Origin: Pseudomonas graminis
GTDB taxonomy: Bacteria; Pseudomonadota; Gammaproteobacteria; Pseudomonadales; Pseudomonadaceae
Reading direction: 5' to 3'
Length of the DNA stretch: 64,000 nucleotides
NCBI RefSeq assembly: GCF_002093745.1
Contig: NZ_MTSB01000012.1
Location: 124,001 to 188,000 of the forward strand
Under the pieces are notes generated by a model, which saw only the letters and a list, made by a program, of their open reading frames with translations, ran no database searches and was not told the DNA's origin. Position numbers and translations under genes: made by a program. Position 1 is the first letter of the stretch, and the number at the start of each line of letters is the position of its first letter. Of the stretch, positions 4,418 to 33,839 are shown one piece after another.

Positions 4418-6037
4418 ATGGCTAAAATTGGCGCGCGAGTATACAGCTATTTACGCTTCTCAGACCCACGACAGGGGTCCGGTGGCAGTGCCGATCGTCA
4501 GCTGCTCTATGCGCAGCGGTGGGCAGCAGACAAGGGCCTGGAACTTGACGAGTCCTTATCCATGCGGGATGAAGGTTTGTCAGCCTACCACCAAAGGCAT
4601 GTCACGCAGGGGGCACTGGGCGTTTTTCTCAGAGCTATTGAGGACGGGCGTATTGCATCCGGATCTGTCCTGGTCGTTGAAGGCTTGGACCGTCTTAGTC
4701 GAGCAGAGCCTATTCAGGCCCAAGCTCAGCTTGCGCAGATTATCAATGCCGGCATTACTGTCGTGACCGCTAGTGACGGGAAAGAGTACAACCGTGCCGG
4801 GTTAAAAGCTCAACCAATGGACCTGGTCTACTCGCTCCTCGTTATGATCCGAGCGCATGAAGAGTCCGACACGAAGAGCAAGCGAGTGAAAGCCTCGATC
4901 CTTCGGCTATGCCAAGCCTGGCAGTCCGGTACCTATCGAGGACTGATCCGGAACGGGAAGGATCCTCAATGGCTTAGGTGGACGGGCAGTGCCTGGGAAA
5001 TGATCCCCGAGCGCGTGCTTGCCGTTCGTCGCGCCTTAGCTTTGTATCAAGAAGGTATGGGCGCGGCGCGTGCAACGAAGATATTGCACGCGGAAGGGCT
5101 GGACTATTCAGCTGGTGGTATATCGAAGCAGCAGATCTATCGATTGATCAAGCTCCAAGCACTAAGGGGCGCGAAATGCCTATCCGTTGATGGTGAGGAT
5201 TTCATACTGGAGGATTACTACCCCCGGTTGCTTTCCGAATCAGAATGGGCAGACCTGCAGCATCTTGCTGGCCAACGACTGCGTCGCCGTGGGCACGGCG
5301 AGATCCCTGGGATCATCACAGGGATCGGCCTTACCTATTGTGGTTATTGCGGCACGGCACTGGTGGGTCAGAACATGATGACTCGGCAGAGAGCCGATGG
5401 AACAATTGCTGATGGTCATCGAAGACTTCACTGCGTTTCATATGGTGTGAATGGTGGTTGCACTGCCGGTGGCTCTTGCAGCGTGGTGCCAGTCGAGAGG
5501 GCTTTGCTTACGTTCTGCTCCGATCAGCTCAATCTGCAACGATTGCTGAAAGTAGGAGATGACGGGCAAGGGATTCGCCAACAACTTGCCGTCGCCCGAT
5601 CAACTGCCGAAAAGCTTTCTGTTCAACTTGGCAGAATTACAGACGCTCTCCTTGCTGACGACAGCGGTACTGCGCCGACAGCGTTCATCCGAAGGGCACG
5701 AGAGCTTGAAGCAGAGCAGGCCGAGGCTCATAAGAAGGTGCAGCAACTGGAATATGAGCTGGCCACCGTCTCTGGATCCGGTAAGCCTGCCCAAGCCGAG
5801 AGGTGGGTAGAGCTGGCAGAGCTGGTCCGCAGTGGGGACTATTCGGCCAGGGAAAAGGTACGGCAGCTGGTAATGGATACGTTTGAAAGGATCGTTGTGT
5901 TTATGCGCGGCATGAGCGCAGAAGACAGGTCTGGCAGATTCATCGATGTTCAACTGCTGTCTCGTACAGGCCAGCAAAGGCTGCTGCAGATCAATCGCAA
6001 GACAGGCGCATGGGTGGCCAGCGAGGATTGGGACTGA
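4418..6037 (+). CDS. large serine recombinase (phage integrase)
   Basis: 539 aa. The N-terminal resolvase domain has [10 protein letters not shown] with Ser15 as the predicted nucleophile, then [10 protein letters not shown], the usual active-site segment. A recombinase domain follows (~170-280), then a cysteine zinc-ribbon (~307-355: CGYCG, HC, GGC, GSC) and a coiled-coil region (~385-450), the layout of large serine integrases such as phiC31/TP901-1 types. It catalyses strand exchange between attP and attB; excision would need a directionality factor, which I could not identify. Its position next to the left junction is usual for such integrases. P2-like phages normally use a tyrosine integrase, so this is a replaced module. 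Confidence 0.9.
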
Positions 6038-6040
6038 GGG

Positions 6041-6082
6041 TTGCGTGCATAGTTTTTGCGAATATACTGTATGTTCATACAG
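6041..6082 (+). promoter_or_regulatory. LexA-controlled promoter of the DUF1654 gene
   Basis: A CTGTATGTTCATACAG LexA box at 6067-6082 fits CTGT-N8-ACAG exactly. A possible -35 TTGCGT (6041) and -10 TATACT (6063-6068) overlap it, so LexA would block the promoter until DNA damage. Confidence 0.85.
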
Positions 6083-6100
6083 TTATGACTAGGAGTCTTT

Positions 6101-6358: not shown

Positions 6359-6361
6359 TGT

Positions 6362-6420
6362 TTACCGCAGGTTAATTTAAATAACCTGCGGTATTGATTT
6401 ATTTCGTTACCTGAGGTTAA
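6362..6420. promoter_or_regulatory. three phage operators and promoter upstream of the unknown module
   Basis: Three copies of a 14-bp near-palindrome related to TTACCTGCGGTTAA at 6362-6375 (inverse orientation), 6381-6394 and 6407-6420. The same motif occurs four times between the repressor and cro genes. A possible -35 TTGATT (6394) and -10 GTTAAT (6416) overlap the second and third copies, so repressor binding would silence the module starting at 6476. Confidence 0.8.
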
Positions 6421-9087: not shown

Positions 9088-9807
9088 CTACATGCCCGTT
9101 ACCTTGGCATCTATCGCTCTGCCAATGATCTCCCAGTCACCCTCTACCTGCACGGTCTGGTAAGCCTGGTTCAGCGGCACCAGGTAACCGACCCCGGCGT
9201 CCAAGATGTACTGCTTGAAGGTCGTTTCGCCGGTAACTGTGTGCCGGGCTACGTAGAACTTTCCGCTGATGATATCGAAACCCTCAGGTCTGACCAGAAT
9301 GGGCGTGCCTTCCGGGAATGTGGGAGGGGTATCCGATGTCATCGACTTTCCCTTAACGCGCAACCAGTATCCACTTGGCCCCGCGTTCTCGGTTGAGCTA
9401 AGCCACTCATCAGATATCCCTAAGGGATACGAACCTGCCGATTCGATGCCAGCGCCTGCGTCCACCCACGTGATTAATGGGTACTCCCTAGCCTCTCTCC
9501 GAGGCTGCACCATCGGGGTCACGTTGCTGTGATCCGTGGTAGCCGCCAGATCTGCAATCTCAGCGGCCAGTCGCGGACTAAATCGATCAACCGGCTCTCC
9601 CAAAAGCCTGGCAAGTGCAGATGCAAATTTTACGTTCAGTGCATTGACGCCGCTGAGGTAGTGCGCGACTGCAGCGGGACTGACTCCGATCTCGTCGGCA
9701 ATCTTCCTCTTATTGAGCTTCAGCTCGTTTTTCTTCGACAGGTACAGCTCGTTGGCCGCTTGGCATTCGGCGAGGAGCTTAGGGGGGAGTGGGGGCTTCT
9801 TGGTCAT
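9088..9807 (-). CDS. XRE-family phage repressor with S24 (LexA-like) peptidase domain
   Basis: 239 aa from the ATG before TKKPPLPPK; the reading frame extends to 9927 only through the operator DNA. N-terminal helix-turn-helix (~31-70: NKRKIADEIGVSPAAVAHYLSG). C-terminal S24 domain with an Ala117-Gly118 autocleavage site (WVDAGAG), nucleophile Ser155 in GKSM and Lys198 in TTFKQY. It is a CI-like repressor that should cleave itself with activated RecA. No clear Shine-Dalgarno precedes the ATG, so the mRNA may be leaderless as for lambda cI. It faces cro across four operators. Confidence 0.92.
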   Translation of the reverse strand: MTKKPPLPPKLLAECQAANELYLSKKNELKLNKRKIADEIGVSPAAVAHYLSGVNALNVKFASALARLLGEPVDRFSPRLAAEIADLAATTDHSNVTPMVQPRREAREYPLITWVDAGAGIESAGSYPLGISDEWLSSTENAGPSGYWLRVKGKSMTSDTPPTFPEGTPILVRPEGFDIISGKFYVARHTVTGETTFKQYILDAGVGYLVPLNQAYQTVQVEGDWEIIGRAIDAKVTGM

Positions 9808-9820
9808 AGGGCGCAATGAT

Positions 9821-9927
9821 AAACCGGAGGTTAATCGAAAAAGATTACCTGCGGGTTCGTCATTGCTGACATTTAGGATACCTGAGGTTACTTTTATCTT
9901 GTCTATTGGATTACCTGCGGTTAACAT
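9821..9927. promoter_or_regulatory. lysogeny switch: four operators and divergent promoters
   Basis: Four 14-bp sites at 9821-9834 (AAACCGGAGGTTAA), 9845-9858 (TTACCTGCGGGTTC), 9878-9891 (ATACCTGAGGTTAC) and 9911-9924 (TTACCTGCGGTTAA), spaced 24, 33 and 33 bp. A rightward promoter TTGTCT (9899) -17 bp- TAACAT (9922) overlaps the last site and would drive cro. The site nearest the repressor start lies where its own promoter should be. Confidence 0.85.
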
Positions 9928-9954
9928 TTGGGCGTCCAGTCAGAGAGTTCTGCC

Positions 9955-10179
9955 ATGAATCAAATCCCATTGCCCGATCTAGTCGCCCAGATCGGTCAGG
10001 CATCGGTTGCTGAAGCATTCGGTATCAGCCCTGCAGCAGTGCATAAAGCGATTCGTTTGGGCCGTAAGATCATGGTCACAGTCCACGATGACGGTTCGTA
10101 CTCCGCGCACGAGCAGCGCCCGTTCCCGCATCACAAAGCAGTGACCGTGATGCAGGCTAAAGCCGGCAGGCTCGTATGA
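9955..10179 (+). CDS. Cro-like HTH regulator
   Basis: 74 aa from the ATG before NQIPLPDLV; a TTG at 9928 lies inside the promoter. Single helix-turn-helix domain QIGQASVAEAFGISPAAVHKAI, divergent from the repressor, as in a Cro protein. Its TGA overlaps the next ATG (ATGA). Confidence 0.8.
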   Translation: MNQIPLPDLVAQIGQASVAEAFGISPAAVHKAIRLGRKIMVTVHDDGSYSAHEQRPFPHHKAVTVMQAKAGRLV

Positions 10180-10799
10180 CTATGTCCAACTCCGGACAGT
10201 CATTGGTCTCGCGTGATCAGGTTCTGGTGGCCCACGCCGCAGACATGATTGCGCGTACCGGTTTTAGCCAGGACGACTTCGCGCAGTCCTTGAGCGTGCA
10301 ACTGCATTGCCTGGTCCCAGATAAAGCAGTGGGGAAGGATGTTCCCGACTTCACCTTGCTCGCCCAGGGCAACGACACCGTCGCTTTCTTGAAAGCCTCC
10401 GGAGCCTGGCTGCGTAGGGTAGGCCGTTGGTTGAGCGGAGAGGTCGATCTTCCGAGCTGGATTGAAGAATCATGGGTTCTTTCTCTGGACGCTGATCATC
10501 AAGAGCGATGCATCAACGAGCTGGCCAGCCGACATGGTCTTACGGGGGCGCGTGAACTGAACGGTGATGGCAATCCTGTCGGTGTATTCGGGCAATTGGT
10601 GGCTCGCCTGGGGGCAACAGTGCAACTCGGCAGCGAGATCCTCGAGGACGGTCGGATTGACATCGATGACCTCGAAAAACTACCTGAGTTTGTCGACCGG
10701 CTGCGAGCTGTAGAGGCTCGTTGCAGTGAGCTGCGTTCTCGTGCTCAGACAGTTATTGACGACCGTCCAGGCGTCACCTTGCTTCATCAGGTGAATTAG
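10176..10799 (+). CDS. early phage protein of unknown function
   Basis: 207 aa, translationally coupled to cro by an ATGA overlap. It starts with a helical segment (DQVLVAHAADMIARTGFSQDDFAQSLS) like a small DNA-binding domain, then a second helical half. Its place between cro and repA is where CII-like regulators or replication accessory genes usually sit, but I recognise no family. It ends 5 bp before the GTG of repA, implying one early operon. Confidence 0.6.
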   Translation: MTMSNSGQSLVSRDQVLVAHAADMIARTGFSQDDFAQSLSVQLHCLVPDKAVGKDVPDFTLLAQGNDTVAFLKASGAWLRRVGRWLSGEVDLPSWIEESWVLSLDADHQERCINELASRHGLTGARELNGDGNPVGVFGQLVARLGATVQLGSEILEDGRIDIDDLEKLPEFVDRLRAVEARCSELRSRAQTVIDDRPGVTLLHQVN

Positions 10800-10804: not shown

Positions 10805-11695
10805 GTGACAGTTCTCGATAAGGACATCCACTCACGTAATCTAAAGGCCGGCCCCGGAAAGGGCCGGCCTACTGCCACGCCTCGCGACAAAAAAGACCCT
10901 CACGCCGCACTCCATGCGCCAGTGCGTCCCCCTCGTTTCCGAGAAAGGCGGAATCTAACGGCTGATCAGCTGAAAATTCCTCTTGTGCGCATGGCGTTCT
11001 CCAGGCTCAGCCAGATCCCAGATCTGCGTGGGAAGTACCTGCGGAGCCTCGACACGATCCATGGTAGCCGTCGCACGCGTTCAGAGCCCTTTGTTGCGCT
11101 TTCTAAGGTCGCTGAACAATTGTTGTTGCGCCTGGACCTTGCAACAGGTGTATTGGGTTGGCTCGACGTAGAGCGCGGACAGTTCTTTCTCAACACCCAG
11201 TGCGGTGTTGCCGAGGACAGTGATATTTCGCCAGCGTCACTTAACCGGCTTATCCGTGGGCTTGAGATCGCAGGCCTCGTCTACCGACGGATCGAGAAGG
11301 TTCGGCTCGATGAGAAAGATAACGCAGGCTTGAACCTGGTTCGTACTCGATGCCTGATCCGGTTTACTGAAAAGTTCTTCAGTGAACTCGGCTGCCGGTA
11401 CCTTTGGCACAAGGCCAAGAAGGCAGCGATCAAGAAGCGTGAGCGCCAGTTACGCGAGGTTGGTGCCCTTCGTGCGGTCCGACAGGAAAAAGCGTCTATT
11501 GAGACCCTACGGCGGGAAACGTCGAGGCGTAATTGGCAGCAGAGTGAGGCGCGCAAGGCGTCTCCAGACGCTCAGGCTGCCCCTAGCTCGAACAGCCAGC
11601 ACCGACCGCCATTAACGCCTGGCGGCGGGTCTGAAGGCCCTGACGACGCCTTAGCCCGCCTGCTGCGAAGTGTCCAGGTCAAGAAAGACACATAA
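10805..11695 (+). CDS. repA: RepA-like plasmid replication initiator (IncFII RepA type)
   Basis: 296 aa with a GTG start. A basic N-terminal tail contains PPRFRERRN. The core follows (~95-200: LLLRLDLATGVLGWLDVERGQ, SPASLNRLIRGLEIAGLVYRR), then the FTEKFFSELGCRYLWHKAKKAAIKKRER segment region and a long basic helical tail. This layout matches IncFII/RepFIC RepA proteins, which bind a downstream origin and load the host replisome. Remote similarity is judged by eye. A gpA-type rolling-circle initiator, expected in P2-like phages, was not found. The 650 bp after it are non-coding and hairpin-rich. Confidence 0.7.
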   Translation: MTVLDKDIHSRNLKAGPGKGRPTATPRDKKDPHAALHAPVRPPRFRERRNLTADQLKIPLVRMAFSRLSQIPDLRGKYLRSLDTIHGSRRTRSEPFVALSKVAEQLLLRLDLATGVLGWLDVERGQFFLNTQCGVAEDSDISPASLNRLIRGLEIAGLVYRRIEKVRLDEKDNAGLNLVRTRCLIRFTEKFFSELGCRYLWHKAKKAAIKKRERQLREVGALRAVRQEKASIETLRRETSRRNWQQSEARKASPDAQAAPSSNSQHRPPLTPGGGSEGPDDALARLLRSVQVKKDT

Positions 11696-12015
11696 CCCCC
11701 GCACATATCGCGCCCCATGCGAGGCCAGGTCACGCCTGGTGTCTGAAAAACTCCATCTCCCAACCTGACTTCCCTTTAACGTACCGGCAGAACGCCACGT
11801 TTGCGTCCGTTTTCTGTCGCCATTTTTCGGCTGCGCCGGCGGAATTCGCCCTGGCCCAGGAAGCATTTGAATTAAATGGAATTTTAAACCCCCTACAGCA
11901 CCCCCGTTGGGTAAAGAAAGAGGCTTCCGGAGTCGTTTGGGGTATCGCGTGTTGGGTACATTATTATGCCTTCGCCCAAGGGCTCAGCTCGCTGCGCTCA
12001 GCTTTCCAGAGGATC

Positions 12016-12102
12016 GCGGGCTACGCGCCCGCCTAGCGGCAGGGCAGTGCCCTGCACCCATCGCTGGCACTTCGGCACAAGGTGCCGAAGGTCCACCGGA
12101 CC
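12016..12102. repeat. cluster of four inverted repeats
   Basis: GCGGGC/GCCCGC (12016-12032), GCAGGGCA/TGCCCTGC (12039-12055), CTTCGGCAC/GTGCCGAAG with a 3-nt loop (12070-12090) and GGTCC/GGACC (12090-12102). All stems are perfect and almost contiguous. Confidence 0.85.
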
Positions 12103-12279
12103 AAGATCGGTAATTGGGCGCGCCGAGGCGACATCGAAATATCGAGAGAGGCGCACGCGGGCTGAACGCTTGGGTGCTCTTCAGAGTTCTGGGTAAGGTT
12201 TTGTCGGACAACCGGCCGCTGCGCGGGTTCCGCCGCGCCGGATTTTTTTCAGTCAAGGGGGATTGTGTTGGCGGCTTAT

Positions 12280-12348: not shown

Positions 12349-12618
12349 TTACACAGACGCAGTTCTGTCCAAGCTGGCGAGAATTTCCTGCTGACGCTCG
12401 ACAGGCATGTCCCGCAGTCGATCGAACAATGCTGATTCCAGCGTCCCTACTTTACGAGCAGATTCCCTCAGCGTATGTGAATACACAAGATTTGCGACCC
12501 AAGTATGGCCGCAAGTTGCGTCCAAGCATTGGCAATACAACTTCACATATTGGCACGTCACTTCCTCTCTTGAGCCGATCCGGCCCTTGTGACCGCACGA
12601 TGTGCATTTGATCCTCAT
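12349..12618 (-). CDS. ogr: Ogr/Delta-type late gene activator (zinc finger)
   Basis: 89 aa from the ATG before RIKCTSCG. Cysteines C-T-S-C near the N-terminus and YCQCLDATCGHTW further on form the Ogr/Delta zinc-binding pattern, followed by the conserved aromatic and basic tail. In P2 and P4 these proteins bind upstream of late promoters and contact RNA polymerase alpha. It is downstream of the portal gene on the same strand. Confidence 0.85.
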   Translation of the reverse strand: MRIKCTSCGHKGRIGSREEVTCQYVKLYCQCLDATCGHTWVANLVYSHTLRESARKVGTLESALFDRLRDMPVERQQEILASLDRTASV

Positions 12619-16625: not shown

Positions 16626-16626
16626 C

Positions 16627-21153: not shown

Positions 21154-21156
21154 CCC

Positions 21157-23024: not shown

Positions 23025-23057
23025 CCCTTTGCAACTCAACCTTACGGAAACACCGAC

Positions 23058-23348
23058 ATGAGCGAAGTAAACCGCAGCATCACCCTGGAACGTGGCGACA
23101 AGGAATTCACGTTCAACCTGACACCGCAGGTGATCACCAAGTACTTCAACGCCACGACCCAGGCCAACAAGGTCGCGCCGGCCCACAACCTGCTGATGGG
23201 CACCGTCAAGGACGAAGACAAGGCCGCACTGAAGGCGTTGCTGGAAAACCCGATCACCACCATGACTCTGGCCGGTGCGTTGCTTGAAGAGTATTCGCCG
23301 GACGTTGAAGTGATCGTAAAAAAGCCCTCGAACATGCCGAAGGCCTGA
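23058..23348 (+). CDS. E: tail assembly chaperone E
   Basis: 96 aa, P2 gpE-like: SEVNRSITLERGDKEFTFNL start and VTAxxxNxLxMG-like middle (APAHNLLMGTVKDEDKAAL). Acts with the frameshift product E+E' to chaperone the tape measure protein. Slippery site A-AAA-AAG at 23318-23324. Confidence 0.88.
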   Translation: MSEVNRSITLERGDKEFTFNLTPQVITKYFNATTQANKVAPAHNLLMGTVKDEDKAALKALLENPITTMTLAGALLEEYSPDVEVIVKKPSNMPKA

Positions 23349-23512
23349 CCCAGGACGGGCTGGGCCAGTTGCTGGCCCTGACCCAACGTTGGCTACCTGG
23401 TGCTGAGCCCACCATTGAAAGCATGGGCACCGCCAAGTGGCTTGAAGACGAACACTGGAGGCGCATGGAAATTGCCGTCGCCAACGGCATTTCCACTGCC
23501 TTTAACGGATAA
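23058..23512 (+). CDS. E': tail assembly chaperone E+E' made by -1 frameshift
   Basis: Frame 0 reads GTA AAA AAG; slipping back one base at A-AAA-AAG continues as GCC CTC GAA CAT, giving KKALEHAEGLTQDGLG, then about 62 residues to TAA at 23510-23512. Predicted fusion about 151 aa. The E' frame has no usable start of its own and fills the gap between E and the tape measure gene exactly. This is the P2 E/E' (lambda G/GT) arrangement. Confidence 0.87.
23318..23324 (+). promoter_or_regulatory. -1 ribosomal frameshift slippery heptamer A AAA AAG
   Basis: Six A then G, in the X XXY YYZ phase relative to E (codons GTA AAA AAG). The downstream -1 frame is open to 23512. Confidence 0.85.
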
Positions 23513-23517
23513 CCCTG

Positions 23518-25887
23518 ATGGCTGACCGTTCCGCCCGCCTGGCTTTCATCCTGAAACTGACCGACAAGGTCAGTGCCCCGTTGGGCAAGGTGAAAACCAG
23601 CTTTAGTGACCTTGCCGCCAAGAGCCAGCAGAACATCATTCAGATGGGTGCAGGCCTGGCCGGCATGGTAGGGGCGGGCAAGGCCATCACCGAATCGCTT
23701 GAACCAGCGCTGGAAGTGAACCGGGCGCTGGGTGACATGCGCGCCCTGGGCACAACCGAAGACGCGCTGGCCTCCTTGAACCGGACTGCCCTCGAATTCT
23801 CGATCACCTACGCCACCGGCGCCGCCGAGTTCGTGGCGTCGTCACGCGTCATCGATGGCGCGATCAAGGGCCTGGTCGGCGGCCAGCTGGCCACCATCAC
23901 CAGTGCCAGCAACCTGTTGGCCAAGGTCACCAAGTCCGACGCCGAAACCACTGGCGCGTACCTGGGCACCATGTACAACCTGTTCAAGTCCCAGGCAGAC
24001 AAGATGGGCCGGGTGGAATGGGCGCAGCAGCTGACCGGCCAGACCGCGCTGGCGGTGAAGCTGTTCCGCACCGATGGTGCCCAGTTGAAAGACGCCTTCA
24101 AGGAAGTAGGGGCGATCGCCACCCAGGCCGGTGTCAGCTTTGCCGAACAAATGGCGGTGGTCGGTACGCTGTCCAGCACCATGGAAGGCGGCGACGCGGG
24201 CGGGCGCTACAAGGCGTTTTTCGAAAACCTCAGCGCGGCTGCCGAGAAAACTGGCCTGAGCTTCACGGACGCCGCCGGCAATGCACTGCCCATGCTGCAG
24301 ATCATGGACAAGCTGCAGGGCAAGTACGGCGACCTGACCAGCGCGGCTGCCGGCACCAAGCTGATGGAAGTGTTCGGCGGTGAAGGTGCCCAGGTGATCG
24401 GCGCGCTGGCCAAGGACACCGATCGCCTGCGCAACGGCATTGCCGAACTGGGCAAGGTCCGGGGCCTGGAGAACGCCGAGAAGATGGCCAAGGCCATGGT
24501 CGACCCCTGGGAGCAGTTTGGCAAAGCCGTCGAAGCGTTGCGCATCGCCTTCGGCCAGTCCCTGATTCCGACGCTGACCCCGCTGATGGATCGCCTGGTG
24601 GGCATTGCCAAGACCTTGACCCGCTGGACGCAGCTGTTCCCGAACATCACCCGCATCATCGGTATCACCACACTGGTGGTCTTTGGCTTCATCGCCGCGA
24701 TGTCGCTGCTGACCCTGGTAGTCGGGGTCAGCAAAATGGTCTGGCTGGGCATGCTCACCGTGTGGAAGCTGCTCACCTGGCAGGGCTTCAAATCGATCGC
24801 CATGTTCCTGTTCCACACGGTCATGGTTGCGGCTTTCGTGGTCGGCCTGATCGGGCTGTACACCTGGATGGCGATCGTGCGCGTCGGCATGTTGCTGTGG
24901 CAGGGCGCGATCTGGCTGGTCAACGCCGCCATGCTGGCCAACCCGGTGCTGCTGATCGTGGCCGGCATTGTCCTGTTGGTCGCTGCCGTGGTTGCGGCGG
25001 TCGTGTACTGGGACGATCTGTGCGCCGCACTGATGAACACCACCGCGTTCCAGTGGATCAGCGATCAGATGGCCAAGCTGTCCAGCTGGTTCGACTCGAT
25101 GGGTGGCTGGTCGGGTATCGCGAAAAAGGCCTGGGACAGCATCCTGTCCACGGTCAAGGGCGCAATCAATGGCCTGATCGAGATGGCCAACAAGATTCCC
25201 GGCGTCAACATCGAAACCACGTTTGGCGATCTGCCCGAGCCGCCGAAGGTGCCCGATCTGCCTGGTCAGGTGGGCGCACCTGTACCGGGTCCACAACTGC
25301 CGGCAGTGGTGACCACACCGCCGGCGGGCACCACACCGGGGGCCAAAGTCGCCTCGGCTGCACAAACTCCGGCTACCCAGACGCCTAAGCCGCTGGCCCT
25401 GGTGCCGGCTGCCGTCGCCCAGTCTGCGCGTGCGCAGGTTCCAGCGCCTGTAGTTCAGGTCCAACCGGCGCAGCCCATCAGACTGCCGCAACCCAACGTG
25501 CTGCCCTTCAAGCCGCTGCAGATGCCTGCCCCGCAGATCAAGCAAGCCGAGCCGATCATGCTGCCGCCAGCGTCGGCTGACCTGGCGTTTTCTATGCCGG
25601 CCAAAACGGCGCTGCCAGAGCGCGTCGAGAAGGTCATCGAGCTGCCCGCCAAATCGGACAAGGGTATCGAGGCCCGCAAGGCGATCAACGCCAATACGTC
25701 GATCAGTCCCACCAAACCGCAGGCCGTCCCGAAAGGAGGACTGATGCAAAGCTTCCAGAACCAGAGCAACGCCATGAACCCCAACCAGCGCCCCGGCACC
25801 CACGTCGAGACAGTGAACATCAATACCTCCAGGCAGATGACCCCGCTGGAGCTGGAAAACATGATGGCCATGGCGGTGGGCGGCTGA
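23518..25887 (+). CDS. T: tail tape measure protein
   Basis: 789 aa. N-terminal helical TMP domain (SARLAFILKLTDKVSAPLGK, then a Gly/Ala-rich stretch), hydrophobic segments at about 380-520, and a long Pro/Ala/Gln-rich C-terminal region (~590-720) before a conserved end. Sets tail length and enters the host envelope during infection. Length fits a tail of roughly 115-120 nm by the usual 1.5 angstrom per residue; that figure is inference. Confidence 0.9.
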   Translation: MADRSARLAFILKLTDKVSAPLGKVKTSFSDLAAKSQQNIIQMGAGLAGMVGAGKAITESLEPALEVNRALGDMRALGTTEDALASLNRTALEFSITYATGAAEFVASSRVIDGAIKGLVGGQLATITSASNLLAKVTKSDAETTGAYLGTMYNLFKSQADKMGRVEWAQQLTGQTALAVKLFRTDGAQLKDAFKEVGAIATQAGVSFAEQMAVVGTLSSTMEGGDAGGRYKAFFENLSAAAEKTGLSFTDAAGNALPMLQIMDKLQGKYGDLTSAAAGTKLMEVFGGEGAQVIGALAKDTDRLRNGIAELGKVRGLENAEKMAKAMVDPWEQFGKAVEALRIAFGQSLIPTLTPLMDRLVGIAKTLTRWTQLFPNITRIIGITTLVVFGFIAAMSLLTLVVGVSKMVWLGMLTVWKLLTWQGFKSIAMFLFHTVMVAAFVVGLIGLYTWMAIVRVGMLLWQGAIWLVNAAMLANPVLLIVAGIVLLVAAVVAAVVYWDDLCAALMNTTAFQWISDQMAKLSSWFDSMGGWSGIAKKAWDSILSTVKGAINGLIEMANKIPGVNIETTFGDLPEPPKVPDLPGQVGAPVPGPQLPAVVTTPPAGTTPGAKVASAAQTPATQTPKPLALVPAAVAQSARAQVPAPVVQVQPAQPIRLPQPNVLPFKPLQMPAPQIKQAEPIMLPPASADLAFSMPAKTALPERVEKVIELPAKSDKGIEARKAINANTSISPTKPQAVPKGGLMQSFQNQSNAMNPNQRPGTHVETVNINTSRQMTPLELENMMAMAVGG

Positions 25888-26204
25888 TGAGTGAATACGT
25901 TGATCTGTTGATCATGAACAACGACCTGGTACTCGATCCGGCCCGCCAGCCTCTGCTGGTGGATGACCGCGCCTCGATCGCCCAGGACATTGCGCACCTG
26001 ATCCGCGAAAGCGGCCTGCTGATCACCCTGGTGGCCGAGCGCGACCGGTTGCGTCAGCGTGACTGCATTCAGCAGATGGAGCTGCTCGTCGAGGATGACG
26101 ACCGCCTGGTACCAGGCACTGCGCAGATCGAGCAGACCCAGCCGGGTGTGTACCTGGTGACCGCCACGACCGTGAAGTTCGGCCAGGTGGAGATCACCCT
26201 ATGA
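25887..26204 (+). CDS. DUF2590 baseplate-associated protein
   Basis: 105 aa; start overlaps the tape measure stop. DUF2590 (YVDLLIMNNDLVLD) sits before baseplate J in HP1/K139-like phages; it resembles gp25/W-type wedge proteins in size and place. ATGA overlap with J. Confidence 0.82.
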   Translation: MSEYVDLLIMNNDLVLDPARQPLLVDDRASIAQDIAHLIRESGLLITLVAERDRLRQRDCIQQMELLVEDDDRLVPGTAQIEQTQPGVYLVTATTVKFGQVEITL

Positions 26205-27370
26205 CCGTCGACTTCAAAAAGGCGCTGGGTGACTCCGGCATTCCGACCACTGAGGCGCAGCTCAAACAGGCCTGGGAAAAGCTGGCCGTTGAGCAGGGCA
26301 GCACGCTGACCAACACCAGCGCGTACAGCCCGTTCTGGCGGATCATCACGGCGCTGGTCACCAAGCCGGTGCTGTGGTTGCTGGAGTTCGTCAGCGGCAC
26401 GGTGCTGCCGAATTTCTTCGTCAAGACTGCCGGCGCGCAGTGGCTGGACATGCTGGCCTGGGCGGTGAACATCGAGCGCAAGGCCGCGACGGTGGCCGTT
26501 GGTGAACTGCTCTTTACCCGCGCCAATACCGGTGGCGAGCTGGAAGTGCCGATCGGCACTGTCGTTCAGTCACCGACCCTCAATGGTCATATCTATCAGT
26601 TGGTGACCACCGAACCGCGCAGCTTTGAAGAGGGCCAGAGTCAGCTGGTGGTACCGGTTAAGGCCGTGGGAGCCGGCAGCGGCTACAACCTGGCACCTGG
26701 TTATTACGCCGTGCTGTCTCAGTCGGTACCGGGCGTTGTCCAGGTTGTGAACAATACCGACTGGCTGCAGACGCCTGGCGCGGATTCCGAGCATGACGAC
26801 CAGTTGCGCCTGCGCGTGCGCAACCAGTTTTCGGCGGTCAACCAATGGCACACCGACGCGGTGTATCGGGCGATCATCACCGGGTTTCCTGGGGTTGCCG
26901 CTGACGGCGTGTACTTTGAACACGGCGCACCGCGTGGACCAGGCAGCGCCAATGCCTTCGTGCTGTTCGACGCCGGCGTGCCCGCCGATACTTTCCTTGA
27001 GCAGATCAACACGCATATCCGCGACGGCGGCAACCATGGCCACGGCGACGATCTGCTGGCCATGTCCATGCCTGAAACCCTGCACGCGATCAGCGTCAAC
27101 GTCTGGCCGGTGGCCAACCTCACCGTGTTGCAGCTGCAGACGCTGCAGGCCGAGATCGGGTTGTTCATCCGCGCTGCGTTCCGCGAGAGCACCCAGAGTG
27201 ACTACGCGCCGACTCGCACATTTCCCCAGTCGCGTTTCAGTTTCAGCCGCCTGACCGAAGAGCTGCACGTCCAGTTTCCGGATATCAGTTCGTTGCGGTT
27301 CGCCAACAGCGACATCGTCTCGGCCTTGGACATCCCGCGCATCAGCACCCTGGCGGTGGTCCTGCAATGA
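26201..27370 (+). CDS. J: baseplate J-like protein
   Basis: 389 aa. Baseplate_J family: GELLFTRANTGGELEVPIGT near the N-terminus, NLAPGYYAVLS and the DDQLRLRVRNQF segment are diagnostic. Forms the baseplate wedge with the next gene product. ATGA overlap with the I-like gene. Confidence 0.92.
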   Translation: MTVDFKKALGDSGIPTTEAQLKQAWEKLAVEQGSTLTNTSAYSPFWRIITALVTKPVLWLLEFVSGTVLPNFFVKTAGAQWLDMLAWAVNIERKAATVAVGELLFTRANTGGELEVPIGTVVQSPTLNGHIYQLVTTEPRSFEEGQSQLVVPVKAVGAGSGYNLAPGYYAVLSQSVPGVVQVVNNTDWLQTPGADSEHDDQLRLRVRNQFSAVNQWHTDAVYRAIITGFPGVAADGVYFEHGAPRGPGSANAFVLFDAGVPADTFLEQINTHIRDGGNHGHGDDLLAMSMPETLHAISVNVWPVANLTVLQLQTLQAEIGLFIRAAFRESTQSDYAPTRTFPQSRFSFSRLTEELHVQFPDISSLRFANSDIVSALDIPRISTLAVVLQ

Positions 27371-27891
27371 TCAAGCTCAAGCTGCCGTTCTGGCTCGAAG
27401 GGCTGGAGCTGACCAAGCTGGTGGCCACCGCCCAGCGTTGGTGGGAACAGGCCACCGAATGGCTGCGCTGGCCGTACCTGCAGTTCGACGCGGACACCTG
27501 CCACCTGTCGATTCTGGAGCTGTGGGCTTGGCAGCGTGACGTCACGCGGTTTCCCGCCGAACCGGAAAGCCTGTTCCGGTTGCGGGTCAAGTACGCCTTT
27601 ATCAACTCCGTGGACGCCGGCAGCACTGCCGGTTTGAAACGCATCCTGGAGCGCCTCGGCGTGGGTTATGTCGAGATCCAGGAACGCCTGCCCGAGCGCG
27701 ACTGGGACGTCGTGTTGCTCACCCTGAGCGATTCCCAACTGTCCGAGAACCCCGACCTGTTGCGTGTGCTGATCCGTCAGTACGGACGCACCTGCCGCCG
27801 GTATGACTTCGTAACCATCACCCCGGTGCGGCTTGCCGTTGCCCTGGTGGATTTCAATGACGATCAGCAAACGCTGGTCGCCAGCCTTTAG
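27367..27891 (+). CDS. I: tail protein I-like (baseplate wedge)
   Basis: 174 aa. LELWAWQRDVTRFPAEPESL and RLRVKYAFINSVDAGS match phage tail protein I-type proteins. Links baseplate J to the fibre. Nine bases separate it from the fibre gene. Confidence 0.83.
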   Translation: MIKLKLPFWLEGLELTKLVATAQRWWEQATEWLRWPYLQFDADTCHLSILELWAWQRDVTRFPAEPESLFRLRVKYAFINSVDAGSTAGLKRILERLGVGYVEIQERLPERDWDVVLLTLSDSQLSENPDLLRVLIRQYGRTCRRYDFVTITPVRLAVALVDFNDDQQTLVASL

Positions 27892-27899
27892 GAGCCCTC

Positions 27900-30242
27900 A
27901 TGGCTGCAAGTATCACCCTCGCCGGCGAAAAACTGATCGCCCAGAAACAAGCGGCCAACCTGCCGCTGACCGTGGCCCGCTTCGTGCTGGCCAACGTGCC
28001 CGGCCTGAATGTGAGCGGCCCGGTCAATCGCGCCGGCGTGAAGCCGCCAGCGGCCCAGATCGTCTACACCGCAAACATCACCCAGCAGGGTTACGTGAAC
28101 CCTAACCAGGTGGTTTACAGCCTGCTGATGGGCACCGATATCGGTGACTTCGACTGGAACTGGATCGGCATGGAGACCAGCGACGACGTGCTGCTGTCGG
28201 TCGCTTACGTGCCTGTGCAACAGAAGCGCAAGAACATCCTGCCCGACCAGATCGGCAACAACGTCACGCGCAACTTCCTGTTGGTGTTCGACGGTGCCCA
28301 GCAGCTGACTGGCATCAAGATCGACGCCAGTACCTGGCAGTTCGATTACACCGCGCGAATGAAAGGCATCGATGAGCGTGAGCGCATCAGCAACCGGGAC
28401 ATGTTCGGGCGCGCATGCTTTTTCGGCGCAGGCCTGCAGCTGCAGAAGGTGGGCAATGCCTACCAGCTCAATCCGGGCGTGGCTTATGTCGAAGGCGTTC
28501 GTCTGCAGCTCGATGCTGTGTTGCCTGTGACCGTGCCGGCAGTGCCGACCAAAGCGTGGCTGGATGTGGTGCTGCAGCGCGAGCTGAGCGACGTCGTGGC
28601 CTCGTTCAAAGTGGTGTTCGGCCAGGAAGCGAAGGTCGACTACACCGACAGCGCCTCGGCCAGGCACTACCTGGTGCCGTTGGCCGACATCACCGGCACC
28701 AGCAGCCTGGTCGACCTGCGTCCGATCGAGGCGATCGACAGCGAGCTGGTGAGGCACTTCGCGGCGCGGGTTGGTGACTATCCAGATCTGCGCGCCCGTG
28801 CCACGACCAAGGAAGACGTCGGGCTGAGCAATGTGCCGAACGCGATCAGCGATGATCCTGCCAACAGCAGCAGCGCTGTGCTGGCGACCACCAGGATGGT
28901 CAATGCCGTGCGCACGGCGATCTTCCAGGCCATTGCTGCGATCGTTGATGGCTCGACCTCCGTCGGCAGGGCAGTGCGCCTGGTTACGCCGCGAGCCTTT
29001 CGATTCAACGGTGCAGCCAGCGGCATCGGGACCTATGACGGCGCGAGTGATACCAATATCACCCTGACGCTGGCTGATAGCGGCGTGCCGGCAGGCACGT
29101 ACACAAAAGTAGCCGTCAACCTGAAAGGCCTGGTCACCAGCGGCAGTAACCCGACAACGCTTGCTGGCTACGGCATCACCGATGCGTACAGCAAGGATGA
29201 CGCGAACAAAAGTTTCGTGAAGCAAGGCGGTGGGCCTGACCAGAAGGGCAATCAGATCAACATCGGCTGGACCGGCGCGATGCTGAAAGTGAGCGTTGAC
29301 GGCACCGACATGGGCAGGATCTGGACGGAAACGTCATTCAACCCCAATGACAAGGCCAACAAGGCTAATACGCTGGCCGGCTACGGTATCTCCGATGCCT
29401 ACACCACCACTCAGGTCAACGACCTGGTGGGCAGACGGGTACTGGCCGACTCCATTGTTCACGCCGGTTTTGCCAGCAACAACACCGACTATCCGTACTT
29501 CCGTCGCATCTCTGATGACAAGGTCTACTACCTACAGCCGCAGATTGGCTACACGCCCTTGCAGCAGGGTGGCGGTGCAGGCCAGAAGACCAACAAGGTG
29601 TTTATCGGTTGGTCAGACGTCGGTCTGAAATTGACGGTAGACGCCACAGATATGGGCCGAATCTGGACTGAGCAGTCGTTCAACCCCAACGATAAAGCTA
29701 ACAAGGCCAATTCCATCGCCGGCTACGGCATCACTGACTGTTACACCGCTGCTCAGGTCAACACGCTGGTAGCCGCAAGGGTCGCCGCCGACTCAATTTC
29801 CACAGCGGGTTTTGCCAGTGACAACCCGGATTATCCGTATTTTCGACGTGCCTCGAACGGGGCCGTTCACTACCTGCAAAAACGCCTCGACTACACGCCC
29901 GTACAGCAGGGCGGCGGTGCAAACCAGGCAGGCAATCAGTTGCGACTGGGATGGGCAGCCAACGGAACAGGTGTTCGGGCGCAAGTGGATAACACTGACC
30001 TCGGCCTCTTGTGGGGCGAGCAAAACTTTTACCGGCCCGACAATAACAACTTCCTGGCGGTTTCTGTCACCGCGACTGAAGTGAGACTGCCCGCTGGCGG
30101 CACCTGGTGCTATTCGCTGATGCATTACTACTCGGGCGGTGCCGGGGTGATCGGTCGAAGTGGCCAGGCCGCTGGCGGGACAGTTATTTCATTCAGCGGC
30201 GGAAGCACCATTTACGGTTTCGCCTGGAGGTACGCAGCATGA
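27900..30242 (+). CDS. H: tail fibre protein with internal repeats
   Basis: 780 aa. N-terminal tail-collar/fibre domain (ITLAGEKLIAQKQAANLPL) that attaches to the baseplate. About three ~113-residue repeats follow (DNA spacing ~340 bp, from ~29220 to ~30040), each with QGGG-x(4-6)-N, IGW, VD-x-TDMGRIW and AGYGI-x-D-x-Y blocks. The C-terminal tip ends GGSTIYGFAWRYAA, like P2-type host-binding tips. It should decide host range. Stop overlaps the assembly gene start. Confidence 0.88.
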   Translation: MAASITLAGEKLIAQKQAANLPLTVARFVLANVPGLNVSGPVNRAGVKPPAAQIVYTANITQQGYVNPNQVVYSLLMGTDIGDFDWNWIGMETSDDVLLSVAYVPVQQKRKNILPDQIGNNVTRNFLLVFDGAQQLTGIKIDASTWQFDYTARMKGIDERERISNRDMFGRACFFGAGLQLQKVGNAYQLNPGVAYVEGVRLQLDAVLPVTVPAVPTKAWLDVVLQRELSDVVASFKVVFGQEAKVDYTDSASARHYLVPLADITGTSSLVDLRPIEAIDSELVRHFAARVGDYPDLRARATTKEDVGLSNVPNAISDDPANSSSAVLATTRMVNAVRTAIFQAIAAIVDGSTSVGRAVRLVTPRAFRFNGAASGIGTYDGASDTNITLTLADSGVPAGTYTKVAVNLKGLVTSGSNPTTLAGYGITDAYSKDDANKSFVKQGGGPDQKGNQINIGWTGAMLKVSVDGTDMGRIWTETSFNPNDKANKANTLAGYGISDAYTTTQVNDLVGRRVLADSIVHAGFASNNTDYPYFRRISDDKVYYLQPQIGYTPLQQGGGAGQKTNKVFIGWSDVGLKLTVDATDMGRIWTEQSFNPNDKANKANSIAGYGITDCYTAAQVNTLVAARVAADSISTAGFASDNPDYPYFRRASNGAVHYLQKRLDYTPVQQGGGANQAGNQLRLGWAANGTGVRAQVDNTDLGLLWGEQNFYRPDNNNFLAVSVTATEVRLPAGGTWCYSLMHYYSGGAGVIGRSGQAAGGTVISFSGGSTIYGFAWRYAA

Positions 30243-30739
30243 CAGACGTGAAACTTGAAACCCCTGAAGAGGTCCTGCCGCCGATTTTCGCGGCTCCCGA
30301 AGAGCCAGTGGCTTTGGGCGTGTCCTTCTCCGATGTGGCCACTAAAAACGATGGCTCGTTCGTGATAACCGTTGCTGGCAACCGTTGTCATGTTACCCAG
30401 GACTACAACCCGCCGCTTTACCAGGCTGTTGTCGACTATCTGGACGCCGGTGGCCACGCTACCGAGTACGCCGAGGACATCGTTGTCCAGGCCGACCCGG
30501 CGTTGCTGGCCAAGCTCTGGGTGGAGCTGCGTTTGAAAGTCTCGGACAACTTGGTATCGCAGTACCGCGATGCTCGCGATCTGGGCGGTGAACTGCCTAT
30601 CACACCCGAGCAGTTCACCCAGTTGCTGACCTGGCGGCAGGCAGTGCGTGAATGGCCGCAGGTGTCTGGCTACCCAAAGGAAACCACGCAGCCGGTTACA
30701 CCGGACTGGATCGAAGCGGTCGTGCTCGATGGCGAATGA
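30239..30739 (+). CDS. G: tail fibre assembly chaperone
   Basis: 166 aa from the ATG overlapping the fibre stop. An N-terminal acidic part, then ITPEQFTQLLTWRQAVREWPQ and TPDWIEAVVLDGE, the signature of Tfa/DUF4376-type fibre assembly proteins. Helps fold the fibre tip. Confidence 0.8.
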   Translation: MTDVKLETPEEVLPPIFAAPEEPVALGVSFSDVATKNDGSFVITVAGNRCHVTQDYNPPLYQAVVDYLDAGGHATEYAEDIVVQADPALLAKLWVELRLKVSDNLVSQYRDARDLGGELPITPEQFTQLLTWRQAVREWPQVSGYPKETTQPVTPDWIEAVVLDGE

Positions 30740-31661
30740 ATGGGCACCGATCAAACTGCAATGGCCGGTGCAGGCCACTCAGTGGATGGATCAGATGGCG
30801 GACGCTCGGGAGTTGATCCAGAGTGAAATGGTCATCACCGGCCAGCGCGTATCGACGCTGGCCGATATCGCCACCACCAGTCCTGGTCTGATCGCAGGGG
30901 CTGCGAAGTCGGCCATCAGCGCCGGACGCGATGCGTTGGTCGCACAGTTTGAAAACGTCCCGTCGTGCATTGTCGTGACGCCGTTTCAGTACGGTGTAGG
31001 GCAGGGCAGCGGTGGTCACCAGCGCTTTCTGTCTGCGCCGAACCTGCTGCAGCTGCTGGCCGACAAGCTGACCGACACCACCGACGCCGTCCGTCCGCAA
31101 GGTCAGCAAAGCGCCCTGGTACTGATATTCCTCGCCACGCGTCTGGACCAGCTCGCGGCGACGCTGGGCCGGTTCAACGTGGTGTTGCCTATGCCTGACC
31201 TGGTGCGCGCCGAGCGCCGTGCCGAACACCTGGCCAAGCTGGAGGTGGAAAAGTGGGTCATGCCGATCGCCGGGCAAATGCCGCTCTGGAGCCAGTTGCC
31301 GCTGCAGCGGTGCCCGATCACCAAGCTGGCCAGCCAGTCCATGGCCGGTCAGCTGGCGATGCTTGAGGGCTATGCCGCCGACAGCTCGCCGATGGCGGAC
31401 CTTGCAGATCTGCAGGCACGAAAGAAGGCGCAGGCCCAGGAGCGCGATCAGCAGCTGGCCGACCTGAAAGCTCAGTTCACCAACAGTGCCGACGACGGTT
31501 CGATACAGTCCCGGATGCTGGGACCGGGTGACTTGGGCCAGCTGCGCCGCGAACTGCTCGAGGGCGAAGCACCGGGCCATGAATGGCCGCTGTGTGCCGG
31601 CGCGCTGCTGGTGGGATCTGCAGAGAGCCTGAGCTTTGTCCAGGAACTGGTGGGCCTATGA
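30729..31661 (+). CDS. phage tail protein of unknown role
   Basis: 310 aa from the ATG overlapping the previous stop; an upstream reading to 30648 overlaps the assembly gene. HP1/K139-type tail region gene: helical, with IAGAAKSAISAGRDALVAQF and a Gln/Ala-rich coiled coil near 225-255. Likely a baseplate or tail tip component by place only. Confidence 0.72.
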   Translation: MANEWAPIKLQWPVQATQWMDQMADARELIQSEMVITGQRVSTLADIATTSPGLIAGAAKSAISAGRDALVAQFENVPSCIVVTPFQYGVGQGSGGHQRFLSAPNLLQLLADKLTDTTDAVRPQGQQSALVLIFLATRLDQLAATLGRFNVVLPMPDLVRAERRAEHLAKLEVEKWVMPIAGQMPLWSQLPLQRCPITKLASQSMAGQLAMLEGYAADSSPMADLADLQARKKAQAQERDQQLADLKAQFTNSADDGSIQSRMLGPGDLGQLRRELLEGEAPGHEWPLCAGALLVGSAESLSFVQELVGL

Positions 31662-32188
31662 CGCTGCTACTCAACGGCGAGCAGATCATCGGCCACCGGA
31701 TGAAGCTGACGGCCAACCTCAAGATCGAGGCCGACGAGCTGGGCGGTCAGACATCGGGCACCGATAAGTCACACAAGGGTTTCAAGCCCAAGACGCTGAC
31801 CGTAGCCCTGACGATCCCTTACAAGTCGCTCGATAACCTGCGCACTATCATGCGCCTGGCCGAGGCGACTGCAGGCGGTGGCCAACTGCAGACCTACCGC
31901 ATCGTCAATGACACGGCCAAGGCCTTTGGCATCCGGCAGGTGACGTTCTCAGATGGGGTCAGCGCCCGTGAGGACGACACACTGGCCCAATGGATAGTCC
32001 AGTTCACTCTGAGCGAGAAGCTATCCAACCCGGAGAAGGTCGAGAACCGGCGCGCCGGCAACGGCGTCACGTCCCAGTCAGCACCAGGTGATGGTGTTGC
32101 AGGCAGCGGATCGGGCACGCCCGAAGAGCTGACAGGCTTTGAAGCGGTGCTCAAGAAAGTGGACACCTACCTGGGCAGCACGCCATGA
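31658..32188 (+). CDS. phage baseplate/tail protein
   Basis: 176 aa from the ATG overlapping the preceding stop. LNGEQIIGHRMKLTANLKIE and the paired beta segments suggest a DNA circularisation or baseplate hub-adaptor type protein. Exact role not identified. ATGA overlap with the hub gene. Confidence 0.7.
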   Translation: MTLLLNGEQIIGHRMKLTANLKIEADELGGQTSGTDKSHKGFKPKTLTVALTIPYKSLDNLRTIMRLAEATAGGGQLQTYRIVNDTAKAFGIRQVTFSDGVSAREDDTLAQWIVQFTLSEKLSNPEKVENRRAGNGVTSQSAPGDGVAGSGSGTPEELTGFEAVLKKVDTYLGSTP

Positions 32189-32895
32189 GCATGAAGCTGC
32201 ACAAGGTGCTGACGATCGGCGGCGTGACTATGCCGCTTATCAACGACGATGTTCGTCTGGACCTCAAGAGTCCGGGCCGTGCCACGTTCACGATCAAGAT
32301 AGGTGCCACCGTCAAAGGTTTGGTCACGTTCGATATCGGCTACAACGAAGCGGTCCTACAGCGTCATTTCATTGGCTATGTCGAGCGCTGCACTGCCACC
32401 AACGGCATCGAGCAGGTGGTGCTGTGCCGCGAGTTAGCCGCGGTGCTGGCCAACCCGTTGCCCATGAACCTGCGCCATGTAGATTTGCGCGCGGTACTGG
32501 CCGATATCGGCAGCAAGACCGGCCTGCGTTTCCGGGTTCCGGATCAGGCCTACACACGCGTCAAGACGCCGTTTTTCTACAACCTGGCCGCTGGATACCA
32601 GGCGCTGGACAGCATGGCGCGGGTGTTCGGCATCAAGGACTTTATCTGGCAGCAACAGGGCGACGGCGAGATCTACGTCGGTGCCTGGGCTGACAGTTTC
32701 TTCGGCGCTCGATCGCCGTTGCAGTTGCCGGTGAACCTTTTCGACGGTTACCAGGGCAGCCAGAGCGCAATGATCGCGGCCTTGCCAGGCCTGCGACCAG
32801 GCGTATCAATCAACCAAGGCGAGCGCATCACGAACGTGACGCTGGCCGGCACACAGATGGCCATCAAATGGACGACGCAATCAAGCGCAGCGTAG
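32185..32895 (+). CDS. baseplate hub protein (gpD/gp27-like)
   Basis: 236 aa. GVTMPLINDDVRLDLKSPGR start and the FIGYVERC and VLCRELAAVLANPLP segments resemble hub proteins that hold the spike. The following spike gene overlaps it by 28 bp. Confidence 0.75.
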   Translation: MSMKLHKVLTIGGVTMPLINDDVRLDLKSPGRATFTIKIGATVKGLVTFDIGYNEAVLQRHFIGYVERCTATNGIEQVVLCRELAAVLANPLPMNLRHVDLRAVLADIGSKTGLRFRVPDQAYTRVKTPFFYNLAAGYQALDSMARVFGIKDFIWQQQGDGEIYVGAWADSFFGARSPLQLPVNLFDGYQGSQSAMIAALPGLRPGVSINQGERITNVTLAGTQMAIKWTTQSSAA

Positions 32896-33839
32896 AACGA
32901 CAATTCCCTGAACTCACCGGCGGCTATCACTTGCCGCGCTTCGCCAAGGTGGTGGCCGTGGCGGATGCGCCGGCCAGTGCTGGACTGTGTGACGACTTCC
33001 GTCCGCGCTTCTCGGTCGACCTGCAGGTGATGGGGCCAGATGGCGAGATAGACACGACGTTGCCGGTACTGGCCGGCGTGCCGCTGCCCATGCCGGTGGG
33101 CGGCGATGAGATGGGATTCTTTGCCTTTCCGGAGGAGGGCACCAGCGTGGTGGTGTGCTTCGCTTATGGCCTGCCGCACAAGCCCTACATTCAAACCATC
33201 CTGCCGCACGGCCTGACATTGCCGAAGGTACCCAAGGGTGACCAGGTGTGGCAGCACAGTGACGCCGTGCAGCAGCGCGTCGACGCGGACGGTAACTGGC
33301 TGCGCAAGACTGACGGCAAGATCCAGGACCAGGCGATCGAGCGCGAAGTCGACGCCATGACGAACACTGAAAGCTTCCAGAGCCACACCAGAACAGTGGA
33401 TGACCATTCGACTGAGTCAGTGGGTGGGGTTAAGAAGATCGAGGCCCTGGGCGCGCTCAAGCTGCTGTCCGGCGGATCCGCGAGTCTGGCGGCAGTGGAC
33501 GACCTGCACCAGGCAACCGGTCGTGACCTAAACCTGGTGGTCGGGCAGAAGCATAACGCCACAGTGGGTGGCGATATGCACGAACGGATTCAGGGTCTGC
33601 GTGAGAGCATCACCAGTAAGAGCCAGCGTTTGCAGGCTCCGAAAAACTGGGTTGGATCGGGCGGTGTGAACATCTTTCAGGTCGTGTGTGACCTGCTCGA
33701 TCTGGTTCAGGACATGAACACCCAGCTCGCTGCACATACCCATGGGCCGACGCCGGTGCCTGGCAACGCGGCTGCGTTTACTGCGGATGCAACGAAGGCA
33801 GCGGTACTGTCAGTGAAGCTCAAGACAGTAACGCTCTGA
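32868..33839 (+). CDS. V: baseplate spike protein (gpV/gp5-like)
   Basis: 323 aa. OB-fold (~20-110: PRFAKVVAVADAP, GVPLPMPVGGDEMGFFAFP) followed by a repetitive beta region (~170-250) with Asn/Ser/Thr and a helical end. Punctures the outer membrane. Last late gene; the convergent oxygenase gene ends 7 bp away. Confidence 0.85.
   Translation: MDDAIKRSVERQFPELTGGYHLPRFAKVVAVADAPASAGLCDDFRPRFSVDLQVMGPDGEIDTTLPVLAGVPLPMPVGGDEMGFFAFPEEGTSVVVCFAYGLPHKPYIQTILPHGLTLPKVPKGDQVWQHSDAVQQRVDADGNWLRKTDGKIQDQAIEREVDAMTNTESFQSHTRTVDDHSTESVGGVKKIEALGALKLLSGGSASLAAVDDLHQATGRDLNLVVGQKHNATVGGDMHERIQGLRESITSKSQRLQAPKNWVGSGGVNIFQVVCDLLDLVQDMNTQLAAHTHGPTPVPGNAAAFTADATKAAVLSVKLKTVTL

Follow-up and report, generated by a model that had tools for sequence, protein, structure and literature searches.

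The 64,000-nt stretch of Pseudomonas graminis DNA analysed here (contig NZ_MTSB01000012.1, positions 124,001 to 188,000; hereafter the window) belongs to a Pseudomonas genome of 5.69 Mb (G000) and carries a prophage with late genes of the P2/HP1 type. Its early region contains a gene for a 296-aa protein of the RepJ family of replication initiators, the last gene of a cro-cII-repJ row that stands opposite an S24-type CI repressor. The features of the early region are as follows.

6361..6420: CI-operator-like repeats from a pattern scan, upstream of the gene at 6476, also found in four close relatives
9088..9927, minus strand: S24-type CI repressor (PF00717, E 2.9e-21; HTH_3), with a likelier start at 9807
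9820..9924: cI/cro intergenic region, with four CI-operator-like sites
9928..10179, plus strand: Cro-like protein (PF09048, E 5.1e-20), with an ATG at 9956
10176..10799, plus strand: CII-like activator (phrog_4834, E 1.2e-32), overlapping the end of cro
10805..11695, plus strand: RepJ-family replication initiator, 296 aa (plasmid tblastn, alignment with pPsv48C RepJ, phage-type relatives)
11863..11933, plus strand: block shared with RepJ plasmids, candidate replication origin (nhmmer, E 2.7e-14 in the window), an AT-rich stretch and then a C-run
11934..12260: GC-rich inverted-repeat region, conserved in the phage family (sequence conservation)
12349..12618, minus strand: Ogr/Delta-type zinc finger (PF04606, E 5e-10), with a module boundary at 12466-12470 inside the gene

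A preliminary description of this DNA had placed the 296-aa gene between cro and the ogr-like gene; the position holds, except that the CII-like gene intervenes after cro.

The 296-aa protein belongs to the RepJ family

We compared the 296-aa protein with plasmid, phage and profile collections. It shares about 51% identity over most of its length with RepJ of plasmid pPsv48C, and 43 columns were invariant in a 28-row alignment that includes the pPsv48C protein. By tblastn, 33 plasmid records matched (31 Pseudomonas and 2 Azotobacter), all at less than 60% identity and 18 of them covered to at least 80%; pPsv48C itself is one of the 33, with its match at 29736-30500. The nearest named relative, at 90%, is labelled P. 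viridiflava, and the relatives are mostly recorded in their sources as 'hypothetical protein', while no match was found among 50,697 phage records.

The match of this open frame to RepJ bears out the plasmid type that the preliminary description had assigned to a RepA-like protein, but the family named there, IncFII RepA (PF02387), is wrong. The profile gave no match to the protein at E<=1 and, with the limit at E<=10, none anywhere in the genome; its control matched 3 of 14 genomes, one of them above the cut-off. It was also absent from the listed 25 of 30 Pfam families in a scan of 38 RepJ family members. Since no replication family is among the Pfam families listed for RepJ-type proteins, the absence of a RepA profile, by which that description proposed to judge the gene, is the wrong test.

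The AlphaFold2 model of the protein, with a mean predicted local distance difference test score of 76.7, contains a winged-helix-like region and a long helix. The fold search yielded weak matches, none singling out initiators, and 4pql, 4pt7 and 5kbj, which are titled DNA-binding, initiator or Rep, stood among many winged-helix proteins of similar score. A profile search of solved-structure sequences gave three matches at E<=1, the best at 0.056.

Passages of PMC5304414 describe repJ of pPsv48C as a newly described initiator gene that is essential for replication, a premature stop abolishing it, and report that sequence 3' of the gene is essential as well, as is the hairpin SaL 4. Upstream lies the control module REx-C with a putative antisense RNA, and the RepJ clades III and IV of that paper are without REx-C and retain some downstream conservation. 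A repJ gene is also named on a plasmid in a passage of PMC13101481. The words 'phage' and 'prophage' were not found in the main text of PMC5304414, and a search of a limited literature collection identified no paper describing RepJ in a phage.

A conserved block after repJ is a candidate origin

By blastn, the downstream region of pPsv48C shares a short block with many phage loci. An nhmmer profile built from 22 plasmid-type loci indeed found this block in all of the 54 phage loci whose sequence continues for 200 nt or more beyond repJ, on the same strand and 155-180 nt past the repJ stop in each; in the window it starts 168 nt past the stop, compared with 182 nt in pPsv48C. The block was present in 23 of 23 plasmid-type loci, of which 22 by construction. 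Three loci with no sequence after repJ were left out (L016, one of the 55 phage loci, together with L075 and L080). In the controls, made up of the remaining sequence of the phage loci and of four sister phages, the best E was 2.7, and the distant relatives L076 and L077 gave no block.

An exact 20-nt motif of the block occurs eight times in 298 Pseudomonas genomes, spread over five of them, and coordinate comparison placed all eight copies directly after RepJ genes, one of which is a fragment. The same pattern read backwards had no occurrence in the 298 genomes, and the exact motif was not found in the other seven RepJ-bearing genomes. The published minimal replicon, with the essential sequence after repJ, ends at pPsv48C 30760 according to a passage of PMC5304414. 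As this end is by arithmetic position 242 past the repJ stop and the plasmid copy of the block starts at 182, most of the pPsv48C block lies inside the minimal replicon. The conserved sequence downstream of repJ that marks the REx-R module is present in the phage, as judged by sequence comparison only.

The hairpin-rich non-coding DNA noted after the gene in the preliminary description was confirmed and shows strong conservation. Covariation does not support the folding model, with a term of 0.03 and changes on both sides in 3 of 52 pairs. In the ~650 nt after repJ, the scanned frames 12114-12611 and 11966-12196 match no family. GC skew was not supportive as an origin marker.

The control region is lambda-like and without detectable REx-C

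A repeat resembling TTACCTGMGGTTAA had 11 matches in the window at up to three mismatches. Eight of these, including both exact ones, lie at six positions in the two early control regions, and the other three lie elsewhere with three mismatches each. In 100 shuffles the mean was 3.6 and the largest count 9, none reaching 11, an enrichment that is partly circular because the pattern was drawn by eye from the same region. Similar sites recur in four close relatives.

We also searched for REx-C with a profile. At E<=0.1 it was found in none of 55 phage loci (one at E<=10), as against 19 of 25 plasmid-type loci, and a REx-C hidden upstream of the phage repJ was thus rejected. The phage replicon resembles that of pPsv48C in its homologous initiator and in the shared block, but differs from it in the undetected REx-C and in the place of repJ after cro and cII; the spacing from the cII start to the repJ start is 629 nt in 35 of 52 loci. 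Lambda has the layout CI / cro-cII-initiator-origin, and that of the window resembles it. Unlike lambda, the window has an initiator and a candidate origin of plasmid type, with late genes of P2 type.

RepJ phages recur and are distinct from RepJ plasmids

The scan of viral contigs gave 42 RepJ loci and the scan of genomes 20. The related phages that the preliminary description proposed to look for were found in number: 52 further loci (L004-L055, best-segment identity at least 59%) have a phage-type repJ in phage context, so that the arrangement is not due to chance. These loci contain CII (52 of 52), CI (51), Cro (50), Ogr (47), portal (47), serine integrase (46) and capsid (36), although several of the contigs end early and some loci are duplicates of one another. 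In several cases the same sequence apparently stands in two collections, e.g. L047 and L067/L090, whose contigs are equal in length. At 13 plasmid-type loci (L001-L003, L056-L065), the window's other genes were not found at E<=1e-5. Among the 298 Pseudomonas genomes, 12 have RepJ, three of them phage-type by identity (G000, G179 and G149).

In a tree of 66 distinct RepJ proteins (46 phage-type, 16 plasmid-type and 4 distant, with the fragmentary plasmid-type L075, L080 and L082 omitted), all 16 plasmid-type proteins form a separate group with 100% bootstrap support, and the phage/plasmid split in the unrooted tree is clear. When the tree is rooted with the distant relatives, the plasmids fall among the phage proteins, on a branch 3.9 in length, a placement that we do not take as showing the direction of transfer.

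The idea that the published chromosomal homologs of clade III are prophages was not supported, as L060 (74% to pPsv48C RepJ), the sole similar locus examined, has chromosomal-looking neighbours by eye. In L064 and L092, two same-start RepJ genes are separated by ~3 kb. The interval has, by eye, a ParA-like gene, and the whole looks like an element of conjugation type. The plasmid-type RepJ of L059 comes from a contig that its source assigns to a cyanobacterial metagenome-assembled genome (Kaiparowitsia); because it groups with Pseudomonas L058 in the tree, this contig is likely Pseudomonas-derived.

The early module is exchanged at a boundary inside ogr

Viral contigs contained 448 portal relatives, of which the best 80 were kept. 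Among these 80, 64 have a primase, 7 RepJ, 9 neither and none both. At least 3 kb of the early side is present in 72, namely the 64 with a phi3- or UFJF-type primase, the 7 with RepJ and 1 with neither; primase and RepJ are both missing from the remaining 8 as well. Of the 64 primase loci, 39 also have an integrase of phi3 or UFJF type, which annotation and a weak profile match assign to the tyrosine family. The early proteins of phi3 and UFJF_PfPro, of ~900 aa, match Toprim_2. These two phages (Phitrevirus; Peduoviridae by record) have the same head, packaging and tail gene order as the window phage, with portal identities of 81% for UFJF_PfPro and 74% for phi3, but they differ from it in the Toprim protein, in another integrase and in having no RepJ match. 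Primase-bearing prophages reach 98% portal identity to the window, in which the sister-type primase was not found.

In blastn against five primase loci (L127, L130, L138, L141 and L172), all alignments begin at 12466-12470, inside ogr; their first pieces have 79-95% identity, and leftward there was no match at E<=1e-10. The late halves are therefore close, and the early halves are without nucleotide similarity. The swap of the early half proposed in the preliminary description thus receives, from RepJ homology and the exchange point inside ogr, stronger support than could be shown at that time. No separate gpA-like gene was found beside RepJ, as PF05840 matched nothing in the genome at E<=1, its control matching 3 of 14 genomes. 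Nor do the sister phages nearest to it rely on gpA: phi3 and UFJF_PfPro carry the ~900-aa Toprim protein.

Proposed replication of the phage and alternative explanations

We thus consider it quite probable that the element is a temperate phage in integrated form, which combines P2/HP1-type late genes with a lambda-like early half and replicates by a plasmid-type replicon. The basis of this reading is RepJ homology, the shared block, the undetected REx-C, the layout, the att sites (see below) and the early-module exchange. It suggests that a plasmid copying machine became the engine of viral lytic growth, apparently switched by the repressor of the phage itself. The idea first put forward for this DNA was essentially correct, but not in the family that it named nor in the extent of the element.

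In the lysogen, CI would repress the cro-cII-repJ row. Upon induction, presumably by RecA-stimulated cleavage of CI, RepJ would be made and would bind the shared block ~170 nt downstream of its own gene, leading to theta replication with host enzymes. Packaging of P2 type starts from circular monomers, which would suit theta products. As the antisense-RNA copy control of the plasmids was not found, repression would replace it, and replication after induction would presumably be unrestrained. We infer the initiator activity, the origin activity, CI control and SOS induction of the phage, and the theta mode is a reasonable inference. More generally, the balance tilts towards a recurrent family of integrative Pseudomonas phages, in which a 'runaway' plasmid replicon (initiator plus origin), with CI replacing antisense control, would power lytic growth and serve as an exchangeable cassette on P2-type late genes with its boundary in ogr.

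This reading provides a likely function and a candidate origin for a conserved phage gene family, as well as a natural case for the modular view of Pseudomonas replicons put forward for plasmids, with REx-R apparently placed under viral control without REx-C. The exchange of replication modules between phages and plasmids, and its direction, become testable. Because the initiator and the candidate origin are adjacent and conserved, the phage would also be a workable system for the start of RepJ replication.

The alternative that survives best, although we regard it as unlikely, is that the phage RepJ is an early-region transcription regulator and no longer an initiator, the phage being replicated by another protein or by the host. 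Weak matches to MarR/HTH profiles (MarR_2 in 29 of 38 RepJ members, best E 4.1e-5; E 0.029 for the window protein) and the winged-helix model would fit a regulator, and a passage of PMC5304414 allows that a chromosomal RepJ homolog may have a non-replication role. However, another passage of PMC5304414 reports that PSA3335_1080 still supported replication, in a frame-dependent manner, after a control fragment was added. The retention of the block downstream of repJ in every testable phage locus (54 of 54) also argues against a regulator, as does the primase of the sister phages: it flanks a closely similar late module on that same side, and in none of the 80 loci does it occur together with RepJ. 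Moreover, the phage repJ sits at the position of the lambda initiator.

Less probable again, and in our estimate doubtful indeed, is a phage-plasmid in which RepJ keeps the excised circle at low copy, alternating with integration. The initiator family is a plasmid family, and two circular plasmids of P. aeruginosa, pPAC1.3b and CP124676, combine distant RepJ relatives with ParA and phage late genes. Against such a life cycle, all 12 genome loci checked, of which two seem to be a single contig, have rimO no more than 1.5 kb from the integrase, the 33 matching plasmid records all stay below 60% identity to the window RepJ, no copy-control module is detectable, and no partition gene turned up among the proteins scanned, which do not cover every small frame. 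Two attP patterns were found in no viral contig, a weak negative, since the proviruses listed are possibly trimmed and the att halves are variable. Persistence as a plasmid, which the preliminary description had entertained, is thus unsupported. The plasmids pPAC1.3b and CP124676 are like the window phage in having phage late genes alongside a RepJ relative, but unlike it they contain ParA and are deposited as circular plasmids, and their RepJ relative shares 54% identity with the one in L087, the latter sharing ~32% with the window protein; L076 and L077, in which the block was not found, are loci of the L087/L088 type.

L087 and L088, both circular plasmids of P. aeruginosa, have phage late genes by annotation alongside ParA, an S24 repressor and a distant relative of RepJ, and L124 and L125, contigs of 36 and 40 kb, resemble them by eye. 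All four are apparent phage-plasmids. As distant relatives stand on these P. aeruginosa plasmids with phage genes, RepJ-related proteins do occur on such elements, and passages of PMC10879196 treat phage-plasmid gene flow between phages and plasmids in general.

Finally, a P2-like rolling-circle mode with a nickase role for RepJ or some other protein would suit the P2-type late genes and packaging but is highly improbable, as the genome has no PF05840 match, no nickase family is among the Pfam families listed for RepJ, and the nearest sister phages carry the Toprim protein and not gpA.

The prophage is inserted at the 5' end of rimO

The attachment sites and the integrase are as follows.

4340..4341: attL crossover dinucleotide (CA), within the rimO 5' end, from comparison of the flanks with prophage-free relatives and with attR
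39367..39368: attR crossover dinucleotide, with the displaced native rimO start directly to its right (ATG 39422, minus strand)
4418..6037, plus strand: large serine integrase, 539 aa (PF00239, PF07508, phrog_95)

The two CA cores, 35,027 bp apart, give a prophage of 35.0 kb, so that the end at 33839 in the preliminary description was not borne out. The prophage is placed between genes that we take from their sequence to be rimO (minus strand, 3052-4386) and kup (plus strand, 40481). Prophage-free relatives align with the left flank to 4344 or slightly further, the native rimO 5' end is displaced to 39369-39422, and the rimO frame stays open because the phage provides its start. Once joined, the phage ends form an almost perfect inverted repeat centred on the core. 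The proximity of rimO to the integrase was seen in all 12 genome loci checked (L046-L055, L089 and L090, with L047 and L090 apparently one contig fetched twice), at a distance of ~220 bp or less in 10 and of ~1.2 and ~1.4 kb in L046 and L051. Insertion and excision of the phage at the rimO 5' end by the serine integrase is the best explanation.

The integrase is of the large resolvase type, as described earlier, matching PF00239 (E 2.7e-11), PF07508 above its cut-off and phrog_95 integrases (E 4.3e-55); its zinc ribbon matches PF13408 only below the cut-off. Relatives in LPPA36, Bcep176 and JC1 have 56-63% identity, the lowest value being that of the Burkholderia phage JC1. According to a passage of PMC9144972, JC1 was determined by experiment to enter the rimO 5' end and to give rimO a new start, the same outcome as in the window prophage. 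The integrase and rimO part is thus already explained by JC1. Unlike the window phage, JC1 is a Bcep22-like podovirus, and no phage record has a RepJ match.

Late half and right end of the prophage

The remaining features of the prophage are as follows.

12696..13718, minus strand: portal of gpQ type (PF04860; 74-81% identity to six phage records)
13477..15531, minus strand: terminase large subunit of gpP type (PF03237, PF17289)
15675..33839, plus strand: head, tail and baseplate genes in P2/HP1 order (PF05125, PF10758, PF04717; collinear nucleotide matches with UFJF_PfPro and phi3)
33846..39366: right-end genes in the prophage, an oxygenase and a 679-aa protein

The P2/HP1 order of packaging and tail genes in the preliminary description was confirmed, as portal, terminase, capsid, Ogr and the DUF2586 protein at the sheath position all match their families. 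The capsid is of the P2 family (PF05125, E 2.7e-118), the DUF2586 protein matches PF10758 at E 5.3e-139, and the PF04717 match is just under its cut-off. The Peduoviridae-type capsid, portal, terminase and Ogr are all present, ordered as in P2 and collinear with phi3 and UFJF_PfPro. The closest phage records by portal are UFJF_PfPro (81%), phita81A/2 and PaBSM-2607-JFK (76%), and BIBS67 and phi3 (74%).

A 2OG-Fe(II) oxygenase gene (33846-34664, minus strand) comes next after the last baseplate gene and is oriented against it. It is followed in AT-rich DNA at the right end by an array of imperfect repeats of 22-24 nt (34726-34909). The 679-aa protein (37005-39044, plus strand), also in AT-rich DNA and adjoining attR, has a sub-threshold NERD (nuclease-related) match and is possibly a phage-borne accessory or defence gene. 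To the right of attR, two copies of the 18-nt repeat AGAATTACGACGAGTGCT stand with ~800 bp between them (39548-40363) and bound the small frames 39605-39862 and 39911-40225 (minus strand), the second of which looks toxin-antitoxin-toxin-like by eye only. In the relative L108, part of the repeat occurs twice, ~600 nt apart.

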